A stretch of 61,710 nt of DNA from Thermoflexales bacterium (GTDB lineage Bacteria > Chloroflexota > Anaerolineae > J036 > Brachytrichaceae). The stretch's first letter is position 1. The number at the start of each line of letters is the position of its first letter. The stretch lies in contig JAIBCK010000006.1 of the NCBI GenBank assembly GCA_019694215.1, positions 1 to 61,710 on the forward strand. The letters are read 5' to 3'. Below are positions 35,130-39,320 of this stretch, in pieces. Both the position numbers and the translations under genes were made by a program. The notes under the pieces are model-generated. The model saw only the letters and a program-made list of their open reading frames with translations, was not told the DNA's origin and ran no database searches.

Positions 35130-35621
35130 CTACTTGACCGGTGTCGGCGTTCGGTCATCCTCGGCCCGTGCGTAGAAGATGTTCGTGTCCTTGGTCGCAT
35201 CCTCGCGGCTGACAAAGATCACCAGCACACTGCTCTTGGTTCCAACCTTCTTGTTGAACACGCACAGCGCGCCGGTCGTGGCGTTGTTGCTCGAGACGCC
35301 CTGGCAGCCCGGCGAGTCGGTGCCCCAACCCTGAGCCTGCATCCGCTCCTTGGTGTAGAAGGCGGAGAAATCGCCCGGTGCCGACTTGCTGGTGTAGGCG
35401 ATGAAATTGAATTTGCCCTGCATCACTGCATTGATCGCCAACTGCGCGGCGACGGGCAATTGCAGGTTGGCCTTGGTGGCACCGGCAAACGGCGGCACAT
35501 CCGACCACAGATCATTGACGGTCCCCGAGGCACCGCCACCCAACAGGCCACTGACCACGCTGCATGACATCGTCAGGACCATCGACGCGGCAAGTGCGAG
35601 CGTTATGAGTCTTCGCTTCAT
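35130..35621 (-). CDS. Small lipoprotein of unknown function
   Basis: A 163-residue protein with a lipoprotein signal (MVLTMSC, Cys20). The mature part begins SVVSGLLGGGASG and then a soluble domain of mixed alpha and beta structure with two further Cys that could form a disulfide (CQGV and CVFN). An AGGGG ribosome binding site lies 7-8 bases before ATG 35621. No relative is recognised. It is divergent from the HAD gene. Confidence 0.7.
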   Translation of the reverse strand: MKRRLITLALAASMVLTMSCSVVSGLLGGGASGTVNDLWSDVPPFAGATKANLQLPVAAQLAINAVMQGKFNFIAYTSKSAPGDFSAFYTKERMQAQGWGTDSPGCQGVSSNNATTGALCVFNKKVGTKSSVLVIFVSREDATKDTNIFYARAEDDRTPTPVK

Positions 35622-35707: not shown

Positions 35708-36412
35708 ATGCCGAAATACACTGCTATTCTCTTTGATTTGGACGGCACGCTGAGGGCGAGCCAACCGGAGGGCTTCGAGGCATTTGCGCAGTATTGTGGT
35801 CGCGTTGGCATTCAGCTCAGCCAGCCACAGATCGAGCTGATCGAGCGCGAGGCGCTGCGCTACTGGTCGAGCGGGCTGGTCGATGAGCACCTGGCCCGCT
35901 ATGACAAGCGCGAGTTCTGGCTCAACTACGACAAGATCCTGCTCACTGCGATTGGTGTGCAGGACCCGCCCAGCTATGCCTCCCGCATCCAGGAGCTGTA
36001 CGACCTGTACTACGACCCCATCGACGTGCTCTACGCAGATGCCTTCATGGTGCTCGATGAGCTGCGCAAGGACGGCTACACGCTGGGCCTGGTGACCAAC
36101 CGCGACAGCGACATCGAGCCGATGCTGAACCGCTACCGGGTGCGCGAGTACTTCAATTTCGTCGTCACGGGCGGCCAGGCCGGCTTCTTCAAGCCGCATC
36201 CGGAGATTTTCCGTCAGGCGCTCGCATTGTCCAAGTCGCGCCCTGAGGAGACCCTGTATGTCGGCGACAACTACTTCGCCGATGTGGTCGGTGCGCTCAA
36301 CGTGGGCATGAACGCCGTTCTGATCGATGCCCGAAACGTTTTCCGCGGCTTCTACGTGCATCGCATCAAGCACCTGCGCCAGGTCCTGGAGTTCATCAAG
36401 GCCGCCGGCTAG
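35708..36412 (+). CDS. HAD-superfamily hydrolase
   Basis: A 234-residue protein. Motif I FDLDGTL (nucleophile Asp10, Asp12), motif II LVTNRDSD near residue 137, motif III with the Lys in FFKPHPEIF near residue 162, and motif IV YVGDNYFADVVGA near residue 185. The cap domain is the helical C1 type (about 20-105). It is a phosphoglycolate-phosphatase-like phosphatase of unknown substrate. Confidence 0.88.
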   Translation: MPKYTAILFDLDGTLRASQPEGFEAFAQYCGRVGIQLSQPQIELIEREALRYWSSGLVDEHLARYDKREFWLNYDKILLTAIGVQDPPSYASRIQELYDLYYDPIDVLYADAFMVLDELRKDGYTLGLVTNRDSDIEPMLNRYRVREYFNFVVTGGQAGFFKPHPEIFRQALALSKSRPEETLYVGDNYFADVVGALNVGMNAVLIDARNVFRGFYVHRIKHLRQVLEFIKAAG

Positions 36413-36422
36413 GCGCGCTTCG

Positions 36423-37796
36423 ATGCCTTTGCGCCCGACCCCCCGCCCCGCCCGAAGGTTGGCCGTCGGCCTGGCGCTGGTCGTCGCGCTGACTGGCTGC
36501 AAGGACCAGACCGTCACCATCAACCTGCCGCCGTGGGAGCGTCCTCCCACGGCCGAGGTGGCGCCCACGCCAACGCCGCGCCCGGAACGCCCGCCCTCCG
36601 CGGCGGAGCCGCACGCCCCGAATGTAAGTGGGTTGCGCGCGCCGGGCCAGGACGGTCAGATGGCGCTCGTGCTGGAGGCGTGGACCCTCGTGAGGGACCG
36701 CTACGTCGATGGCGGCTTCAATGGCGCGGATTGGGCCGCGGCCTACACCCGCACGATGCAAGCCGTTCGCGCCGGCCTGGATGACGAAGGCTTCCACGAG
36801 CAGATGCTCAGCCTGCTCGACACGCTGGCAGACGGGCAATCGCAATACGTGCCCCAACCGCTCGTCGCCGCCCCCCCGCTGACCGATACGGCGCCGTATG
36901 TCGGCCTCGGGTTCGGATTCAGCTACGACGTCACCGACGACTTTGACGCCGCCACGATCGTGCAGGTGCAGCGCGGCAGCCCGGCGGAGCGCGCGGGGTT
37001 GCGTCCGCACGATCGGGTGCTGGAGATCAACGGCGAGCCCTCGATCGACCCGGCTCTGGCTGATCTGAGCGACGCCTTCTTTGACAAGGGTGTGCTGAGT
37101 GCAACGCTGAAAGTGCAGACGCCTGGCGCGGCCGTGCGCACCATCACCCTGAGCAAAGCGCGCATCACCGACACCCTGCAGATCGACGCCCGGTTGCTGG
37201 GCGGCCGAAAGCGCGTGGGCTATCTTTTCCTCCCCGGGCTGGCCGACCCGAGCGCGCTGCCGAAACTGCGCGAGGCACTGCGCGGCCTGATGAGCGGGGG
37301 TGCGCTGGACGGGCTGATCATCGATCTGCGCTACGCCGGCGGGGCTGAACGCGGTGCCGATCTCGCGGCGCTTCCCGCCATGGTGGGCCTGTTCTCGGCG
37401 GGCCCGTATGGCCGATTTGCCGACCGCGCTGGCAAGGGCGAGCTCCTGACCGCCCTGGCGGAGAACCTGGGGAACAGTCAGAAGGTGCCGCTGGTCTTTC
37501 TTACCGGTTGGCGGACCGGAGGCGCGATCGAGATCGCGGCGGGTGTCCTGCGGGCGCAGAAGCGCGCCCGCATCGTCGGACAACGCACGGAAGGCAGCAA
37601 CGAGCGTGTCGTTGTGCACACCCTGTCGGACGGATCACAGGTGTGGCTGGCCGAGCAGCGTTTCGTGCTGCCCGATGGGCGCAGCTGGGCGCGGGACGGG
37701 CTGGCTCCAGACATCGACGTCGACGCGCCCTGGGAGGGCTTCAGCGAGGCCGACGACCCGTATCTCAGGGCGGCGCTCGACCTGCTGGGGCGATAA
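36423..37796 (+). CDS. S41-like PDZ lipoprotein, catalytic serine lost
   Basis: A 457-residue lipoprotein (lipobox LTGC, Cys26) with a Pro-rich spacer, an S41 N-terminal helical region (about 75-150), a PDZ domain (about 165-255) with SPAERAGLRPHDRVLEINGE, and an S41 protease fold. At the position of the nucleophile, where its downstream paralogue has SVSAAE with Ser399, this protein reads TGGAIE with Gly367, and the second active-site region is also changed (RTEGSNER). It is probably an inactive homologue, perhaps a scaffold or regulator. Starts 10 bases after the HAD gene. Confidence 0.8.
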   Translation: MPLRPTPRPARRLAVGLALVVALTGCKDQTVTINLPPWERPPTAEVAPTPTPRPERPPSAAEPHAPNVSGLRAPGQDGQMALVLEAWTLVRDRYVDGGFNGADWAAAYTRTMQAVRAGLDDEGFHEQMLSLLDTLADGQSQYVPQPLVAAPPLTDTAPYVGLGFGFSYDVTDDFDAATIVQVQRGSPAERAGLRPHDRVLEINGEPSIDPALADLSDAFFDKGVLSATLKVQTPGAAVRTITLSKARITDTLQIDARLLGGRKRVGYLFLPGLADPSALPKLREALRGLMSGGALDGLIIDLRYAGGAERGADLAALPAMVGLFSAGPYGRFADRAGKGELLTALAENLGNSQKVPLVFLTGWRTGGAIEIAAGVLRAQKRARIVGQRTEGSNERVVVHTLSDGSQVWLAEQRFVLPDGRSWARDGLAPDIDVDAPWEGFSEADDPYLRAALDLLGR

Positions 37797-37847
37797 TCCG
37801 CAGGCTCTAAGCTTCCACTAGCCTGAATCGTGTGTAATGAGGCAACC

Positions 37848-39320
37848 TTGAACAAACTCGCCCTGCATCGCGCCCTGGTCTCTGGTCTACTTGCGCTCGC
37901 CATCGGTGGTTGCGGCTACGTCACCGAAGGAGCGCGCATCATCGCCCGCGAGGCGAGCTCGATCCTCGCGCCCAAGACACCGACCGCCGCGCCGCGCCCG
38001 ACCGCGCCGCGCCCGACCGCGCCGCCCTCCGCGACGCCGGCGCCGACCCAGGTAGCAACCGTTGGACCGCGCGGCACCACCGCCGCGGGAACGGCGACCC
38101 CGCAGGCGCGCAACACCCCCACCCCCGTGCCCGGGGCGACTGTTGAGCCCACGCCCAACGCCCGCCAGCGAGACACGCAGCTCAAAGTGTTTCAGGATCT
38201 GTGGGCGACCGTCAACGACAACTACATCTACGAGGACTTCAATGGCGTGGACTGGGCCGGGCTGAAGGCACCGACCGAGGCCAAGATCCGCGCCGGCCTG
38301 ACCGACTCTGCATTTCAGAAGCTGATGTACGAGATCGTGGACAGCCTCAAGGACGATCATTCGCGCTACCAGAGCCCGACCGAGGTCAAGGAAGAGCAGG
38401 CCCGCTTCAAGGGTGAGCAGAGCTATACCGGGATCGGCATCCAGTGGGACTTCAGCGTCGAGAAGCGCTATGTCTTTGTGCTGGTGGTGTACCCCGACAG
38501 CCCGGCCGAGCGGGCCGGCATTCGCCCGCACGATCACATCCTTGCCGTCGAAGGGGAGCCCGCGGTCAACGCCGACGGAGAGCCCATCGTCTCCAAGGTG
38601 CGCGGACCGGAAGGCAGCCAGGTCACCATCACGGTGCAGACCCCGGGCGGCGCGCCGCGCGACCTCACGCTTACCCGGGCCAAGGTGCTGGCCAAGAGCA
38701 ACATCGAGCGCCGCATCCTGGGCGCGGACATGGCCGGCAACAAGCGCATCGGGTACATCCTCATGCCGACCTTTTACGAAGCCGGCATCGCCGATCAGTT
38801 CCGCTCAGCCCTGAGCGAGCTGATGAAGAACGGCAACCTGGACGGGCTCATCATCGACGTGCGCAACAACGGCGGCGGCTCGCTCGCTGAGCTCGAGAAG
38901 ACGCTGAGCGTGCTGGCCAACGGCACCATGGGCAGCGAGACGACGCGGGCCGGGAGCCAGCAAATGCTGCGCGCGCGTGGTGAAAAGATCGGCAATTCGC
39001 AAAGCGTGCCGCTCGCGATCCTCACATCGAAGTCGTCCGTGTCAGCCGCGGAAATTTTCGCCGGCACGCTTCAGTACGCCAAGCGCGCCCGCACCGTGGG
39101 CCAGGACACGGCCGGCAACATCGAGGTGCTCTACACCTACAAGTTCGCCGACGGCTCGCAGGCCCTGATCGCCTCCGAGACCTTCCGGCTGCCCAACGGA
39201 AGCAACTGGGAGGGCAAGGGCGTCAAGGTCGATGTGCCTGTGCCGAACTCCGGCTGGGATGAGTTCACCGAGGAGACCGACCCCGGCATCCGCGCGGCAG
39301 CGGCCCTGCTCGCCAAGTAG
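37848..39320 (+). CDS. S41-family PDZ peptidase, lipoprotein
   Basis: A 490-residue lipoprotein with a Cys in AIGGCGYV at about residue 23, a TP-rich spacer (about 45-105), an N-terminal helical region, a PDZ domain (about 190-275; DSPAERAGIRPHDHI) and the S41 catalytic domain with Ser399 in SVSAAEIFAG. The Ctp-type lysine is replaced by Asn (DTAGNIE), which fits the Ser-only-motif subgroup related to tricorn and IRBP proteases. Likely a processing protease on the outer face of the membrane. I chose TTG 37848 (GAGG 5 bases upstream); an in-frame GTG at 37830 is possible. Confidence 0.8.
   Translation: MNKLALHRALVSGLLALAIGGCGYVTEGARIIAREASSILAPKTPTAAPRPTAPRPTAPPSATPAPTQVATVGPRGTTAAGTATPQARNTPTPVPGATVEPTPNARQRDTQLKVFQDLWATVNDNYIYEDFNGVDWAGLKAPTEAKIRAGLTDSAFQKLMYEIVDSLKDDHSRYQSPTEVKEEQARFKGEQSYTGIGIQWDFSVEKRYVFVLVVYPDSPAERAGIRPHDHILAVEGEPAVNADGEPIVSKVRGPEGSQVTITVQTPGGAPRDLTLTRAKVLAKSNIERRILGADMAGNKRIGYILMPTFYEAGIADQFRSALSELMKNGNLDGLIIDVRNNGGGSLAELEKTLSVLANGTMGSETTRAGSQQMLRARGEKIGNSQSVPLAILTSKSSVSAAEIFAGTLQYAKRARTVGQDTAGNIEVLYTYKFADGSQALIASETFRLPNGSNWEGKGVKVDVPVPNSGWDEFTEETDPGIRAAAALLAK

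Follow-up and report, generated by a model that had tools for sequence, protein, structure and literature searches.

Lineage-specific loss of catalytic residues in the first of two tandem S41/PDZ lipoprotein genes of a Thermoflexales bacterium

The window, a stretch of 61,710 nucleotides from a Thermoflexales bacterium, carries two intact and adjacent open reading frames on the forward strand, designated here gene A and gene B (Table 1). Both belong to the S41 family by homology, with Peptidase_S41 scores of 71.1 bits for A and 110.6 bits for B against a Pfam cut-off of 24, and each has a PDZ domain scoring over its own Pfam cut-off. Lipoprotein signals read by eye (...LVVALTGC26 in A; ...LALAIGGC, with lipobox IGGC, in B) make both of them predicted lipoproteins. 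Gene B encodes 496 residues if read from the GTG start and 490 from the TTG, leaving 33 or 51 bases, respectively, after gene A. The TTG is the likelier start because it gives a shorter N-terminus, resembling the start chosen for gene B of the sister species. The nucleophile of B is thus residue 405 or 399 according to the start, so that the Ser399 of an earlier note on this DNA reflects a choice of start codon and no mistake; numbering from the GTG is used throughout. A HAD-like hydrolase gene ends 10 bases before gene A, and gene B is followed by a tyrosine-phosphatase-family gene and then a laccase-family gene. Counts of promoter-like sites (1, versus 0.5 in shuffled sequence) and terminator-like sites (2, versus 2.4) were uninformative. 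A small lipoprotein-like gene without a Pfam match, at 35130-35621 on the minus strand, runs divergently from the HAD gene in this genome; a gene of this kind is also found near the HAD gene in several relatives.

Table 1. Coordinates of genes and residues at the tandem S41 locus; positions are those of the window.
Feature	Position	Strand	Remark
HAD-like hydrolase	35708..36412	+	Pfam HAD_2; in the family, typically precedes the S41 gene
Gene A, S41/PDZ lipoprotein lacking the catalytic residues	36423..37796	+	457 aa
Lipobox LTGC of A (Cys26)	36489..36500	+	read by eye; putative lipidation
Gln139 of A, position of putative catalytic His	36837..36839	+	codon CAA
PDZ domain of A, approximate bounds	36897..37172	+	Pfam PDZ_6 over cut-off; strands in predicted model
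Altered oxyanion loop of A	37335..37361	+	Ala305, Ala308, four-residue insert RGAD 310-313; B has RNNGGGS
Gly367 of A, nucleophile position	37521..37523	+	codon GGC
Ser392 of A	37596..37598	+	Asn in active-looking relatives; Lys position of Ser-Lys C-terminal processing proteases
Ala423 of A	37689..37691	+	Glu (WEGxG) in active-looking relatives
Gene B, S41/PDZ lipoprotein, active-looking	37830..39320	+	start GTG 37830 or, likelier, TTG 37848
His177 of B	38358..38360	+	codon CAT; numbered from GTG 37830
Ser405 of B, nucleophile	39042..39044	+	codon TCA
Glu461 of B	39210..39212	+	codon GAG

A set of 54 homologues was compiled from 52 places matched at E<=1e-40 in 28 genomes of the family, plus a further adjacent pair from this genome (C26). 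The nucleophile position is Ser in 36 of these and Gly in 18. Among the Ser-types, 34 carry the His of a DxHS motif and lack Lys at Ser+25; the remaining two are the C26 proteins, with Lys at Ser+25 and no His. Glu461 is retained in all but one of the 34 Ser-His types, the exception being a distant copy at locus L053. By alignment, Ser405 and His177 of B are its predicted nucleophile and general base, and B is predicted to be active; at Ser+25 it has Asn430 and no Lys, unlike proteases of the Ser-Lys(-Gln) type. Because the Lys position is Asn and the His is present, B probably relies on Ser and His as its catalytic pair, assisted by Glu and Asn, rather than on a Ser-Lys dyad, and we propose B as the working enzyme of the pair. 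Lys at Ser+25 also occurs in one Gly-type, L087, so the position is no perfect marker.

Several characterized systems provide a frame for these two proteins. The catalytic triad of tricorn protease is Ser-His-Glu, and its structure 1k32 matches the predicted model of B with Z 14.5. Modules of IRBP/RBP3 are S41 relatives used as carriers; the S41 fold is held in common (profile match to 9frx, E 1.3e-51 summed over four stretches), but IRBP/RBP3 is an animal retinoid carrier built of four repeats. The C-terminal processing proteases, among them the D1 protease, CtpB, and Pseudomonas aeruginosa CtpA, combine a PDZ domain with an S41 core as A and B do. D1 protease (1fc7) is the best sequence match of the family profile, with E 3.7e-53, and the best chains of this group match B at Z 26.7-28.8 and A at Z 22.5-23.9. 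In contrast to them, however, B has Asn at the place of the catalytic Lys and His at the DxHS position, and A is without the nucleophile and other catalytic positions. The triad of CtpA is given as Ser302-Lys327-Gln331 (PMC8764530). The nisin resistance protein NSR, an S41 protein with a Ser236-His98 dyad, has Ser-His chemistry like that proposed for B and a similar fold (4y68, Z 22.2 to B), but it is described as a helical bundle, cap, and core, the available portion of its description mentioning no PDZ domain (PMC4698656); A lacks the dyad.

In the family alignment, Gly367 of A falls opposite the nucleophile Ser of B, as the earlier note had it, and the replacements prove wider than that note saw: in B numbering, A shows H177Q, N347A, G350A, S405G, N430S, and E461A. 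The same six positions are intact in the orthologue of A in the sister species (Thermoflexales bacterium isolate Go_SlAct_bin_491, JAGOCU010000172.1; genome G001, locus L037). A is the sole protein without the nucleophile Ser among 23 in the B-like clade of the tree. Since its GGC codon requires at least two base changes from any TCN (TCG in the orthologue, TCA in B), and since other residues are replaced as well, a sequencing error is argued against.

The losses are concentrated at the active site. We defined 73 family-conserved columns, in which at most one sequence differs and at most one lacks the column among 21 relatives (B, the B of the sister species, and 19 further Ser-types, including both copies of another pair in this genome, C38, and the distant copy L053). 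A keeps 57 of the 73 and its orthologue 66. Ten losses are peculiar to A, and they take 6 of 7 catalytic or oxyanion-loop columns versus 4 of 66 others (Fisher p 8e-6), the seven columns having been named post hoc, after the alignment was viewed. A test free of that choice points the same way: A has lost 9 of 23 columns conserved in Ser-types only versus 6 of 44 shared with Gly-types (p 0.03), and the orthologue 2 of 23 versus 3 of 44 (p 1). It is very improbable that A remains a protease with relocated catalytic residues. We saw no feature in support: Thr365 lies near the site, but its column is Thr in most active-looking relatives, and the Ser, His, Asn347, Asn430, and Glu positions have all changed together. 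With Gly367 at the nucleophile and Ser392 and Gln139 at the general-base positions, A is, by sequence criteria, dead as a protease and inactivated in this lineage, and the earlier label of probable pseudoenzyme is supported and strengthened for this species.

Gene A has no stop in its 457 codons and no frameshift, and its GC3 of 0.838 compares with 0.838-0.872 in the HAD gene, gene B, and the next two genes. In the AlphaFold2 model of A (pLDDT 82.9, pTM 0.79), confidence drops only for the N-terminal spacer and a stretch near residues 151-160. The best structural match of the model is 3k50 (Z 26.7, rmsd 4.1, 337 aligned), and the S41 structures matched by B are mostly matched by A too, at somewhat lower Z. 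Between A and its orthologue, dN is 0.416, dS 1.28, and dN/dS about 0.33 (NG86, 383 codons), and between the two B genes dN is 0.157 and dS 1.19 (380 codons), with dS near saturation in both pairs. Neutral copies of the orthologue were simulated, the real pair being 50% identical: at about 63% protein identity these carried a mean of 4.9 stops, with 1% of 200 stop-free, and at about 52% a mean of 6.5, with 0 of 200 stop-free, figures that load all divergence onto one copy where the tree assigns A about four fifths. By these measures, A was under constraint for much of its history.

The tree adds a qualification. Trees were deliberately built without the catalytic columns, and the N-terminal/PDZ tree without the His column. 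A and its orthologue are sisters (100/100), with end branches of 0.74 for A, 0.16 for the orthologue, and 0.16 and 0.12 for the two B genes; in a larger tree of 71 rows the values are 0.67, 0.17, 0.15, and 0.12. An end branch some 4 to 4.5 times that of the orthologue makes partial relaxation clear. The parts of this branch before and after the loss of Ser are inseparable, and a long end branch is also expected under early decay. The previous description of A as maintained rather than decayed is therefore moderately upheld by the intact frame, GC3, dN/dS, and predicted fold, and is weakened by the relaxation.

Decay itself, in which A would be a dispensable paralogue at an early stage, its active site lost and the rest drifting without function, we regard as rather unlikely. 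A has evolved faster than both its orthologue and B, relatives outside the genus have one S41 gene at the locus, and the 18-residue stretch past the lost His has fallen to 11% identity with the orthologue, versus 89% in the B pair. Against this, the frame is unbroken with dN/dS well under 1, most conserved columns are kept while the losses of A's own cluster at the active site, and identity to the orthologue is 54% in the PDZ region and 73% in region 441-470.

We judge it moderately probable that A is instead a non-cutting PDZ lipoprotein, a tandem paralogue of B whose catalysis was lost in the lineage of this species. The catalytic residues have gone from the sequence, and the open reading frame retains the signal, lipobox, and PDZ domain together with a predicted S41 fold. 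The PDZ domain, anchor, and fold suggest binding without cutting: A would most likely bind peptide tails through its PDZ domain and S41 cleft, could act on the cell surface as a holder or decoy, and possibly contacts B, the product of the neighboring gene.

A dedicated partnership with B was the proposal of the earlier note, in which A was a regulator or substrate-presenting partner of the active copy, and in the form of a conserved active/inactive pair it is not borne out; we consider it improbable. The genes are adjacent on one strand and both products are predicted PDZ lipoproteins, and P. aeruginosa CtpA forms a hexamer and depends on a lipoprotein partner, albeit a TPR protein (PMC8764530). 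However, at 15 loci in other genera, where the HAD gene is adjacent to an S41 gene as it also is in the sister species, there is one S41 gene each, closer to B than to A; at two of the 15 (L049 and L054) the contig stops at the S41 gene, so that a second copy could lie downstream there. Of two further S41 loci, one (L052) has no HAD match and the other (L053) has its gene unlinked to HAD. The tandem pair was found in both genomes of the genus, this one and that of the sister species, and at none of the other loci examined. Nor is Gly fixed in the first copy: the sole known orthologue carries Ser, along with His, Asn, and Glu, and looks active. Read from these alignments, the catalytic loss is lineage-specific.

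Outside the genus, the trees place the gene at L053 (7176-8693, minus strand; G009:C19) nearest to A; it keeps Ser and His, with Glu461 replaced by Ala and Asn430 by Leu, which may be an intermediate state. This genome has a second tandem S41 pair (C38; L055 7142-10341, minus strand), with Ser, His, and Glu intact in both copies, and a third (C26; L056 4464-6985, plus strand), of Ser-Lys type without the His. In many other genomes, too, S41 genes that match A weakly lie in adjacent pairs. At L078 (837-3275, plus strand; G015:C262), an 813-residue open frame with a full S41 match is followed by a second S41-like match with one TAG inside.

Seventeen of the 18 Gly-types among the 54 homologues form one clade (100/100), which is older; A is the eighteenth and lies outside it. 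PDZ and S41 domains were found in all 17 when scanned, the Pfam label being plain Peptidase S41. Their Gly at the nucleophile and their lipobox Cys are invariant (alignment A4), and their His, Asn, and Glu are replaced. The clade thus resembles A in its PDZ domain, S41 fold, nucleophile Gly, and loss of His, Asn, and Glu, but differs in its separate origin, in having no B-like neighbor, and in its other replacements (e.g. Asp/Glu, Ile/Met, Arg/Tyr). Among the matches listed from a search of titles and abstract openings of open-licence PMC articles, none describes a Gly-type S41 lipoprotein, and those listed for S41 pseudoproteases all concern other protease families.

A class-wide search of 298 genomes drawn from a larger group, with five candidates scored per genome, added at least 17 distinct S41 proteins, at least five with Ser and at least 12 with Gly. 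Among the matches listed, the added Gly-types comprise seven from the family, four from other families of the class, and one groundwater Chloroflexi record (L066). Members of the older clade are found in part of L080-L098 and in L128-L136, L138, L141, and L066; L025 and L135 are the same gene, and L025 was left out of the 71-row tree. In that tree (41 Ser, 30 Gly), every Gly-type except A belongs to one group of 29 (98/97), and A is placed elsewhere. The Gly-types from other class families and the groundwater record (L135, L136, L138, L141, L066) form the sister group of the family clade and have Gly also at the Glu position. Placing A inside the 17-member clade is rejected by the AU test (p 0.0002), and placing A together with its orthologue with that clade is a borderline case (p 0.049). 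Because the 71-row tree needs two changes, and given these tests, Ser to Gly arose at least twice.

Resemblance of A to the older clade beyond the active site is slight. The comparison set 21 Ser-types against 24 family Gly-types; of the five columns in which the two groups are fixed for different residues at 90%, three carry the Gly-type residue in A and one in its orthologue, and the columns by which A exceeds its orthologue amount to no more than the nucleophile and an Asp-to-Glu change. At looser thresholds the signal fades (4 versus 2 of 10 columns at 80%, and 5 of 40 each at 60%). Older genes were not beside a B-like S41 gene in any of 17 contexts examined. At four g7 loci, three g8 loci, and in the sister species the older gene is divergent beside a NUDIX/GNAT gene; other examined loci with the older gene had no NUDIX match, g6 loci share a different set of neighbors, and we saw no partner gene common to all genera.

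The older clade occurs in 26 of the 28 family genomes, with the Gly seen in 24 and N-terminal fragments in two. Both fragments end before the nucleophile, one at a contig end (G018) and the other, in the sister species (G001:C438), at a scaffold gap of 100 N that hides the catalytic half. From N-terminal and PDZ columns, both fall within the family clade (26 rows, 100/99), although the wider group with Gly-types of other families reaches only 94/76. The two genomes without an older gene are G024, which is 75% complete, and the genome described here, at 96%. When only genomes at least 90% complete and at most 5% contaminated are counted, 20 of 21 have the clade, this genome being the exception. 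Searched with the clade profile, this genome yields six S41 genes, all from outside the older clade, and a search with the fragment from the sister species returns the same six. At the orthologous locus here, in a stretch free of N, the NUDIX gene (78% identical) has as its next neighbor, within 30 bases, a relative of the beta-lactamase-like gene that in the sister species lies beyond the older gene. The older gene is cleanly absent from this genome, as represented by one metagenome assembly.

The only near-complete genome without an older dead S41 protein is thus the one with a newly dead one, which suggests a replacement: as a special case of A being a non-cutting lipoprotein, A may have taken the place of the older Gly-type lipoprotein lost here. 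We put this forward tentatively, as a minority possibility. The older clade is nearly family-wide, the orthologous locus without it is free of gaps, the sister species has the older gene together with an active-looking A, and the Ser to Gly change happened twice independently, with the 90% columns leaning toward the Gly-type in A. Nevertheless, this is a single case noticed post hoc; convergence weakens at the looser thresholds, the older genes do not adjoin B-like genes, in the sister species an assembly gap conceals the catalytic portion of the older gene, and the absence here comes from one metagenome assembly. Equally tentative is the wider notion of pseudoprotease turnover, by which the job of the older lipoprotein lost in this lineage would pass to a tandem copy of an active protease, freshly inactivated by the same Ser to Gly change.

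As a rule, pseudoenzymes come to notice only long after they arose. In this genus, two species carry at the same locus orthologues of which one looks active and the other dead, making the step from protease to non-protease directly testable. The older Gly-type S41 lipoproteins, for their part, would represent a family of dead proteases in these Chloroflexota, for which the name peptidase would mislead, and if the turnover is true, a dead S41 protein at the cell surface would be something that these bacteria need.
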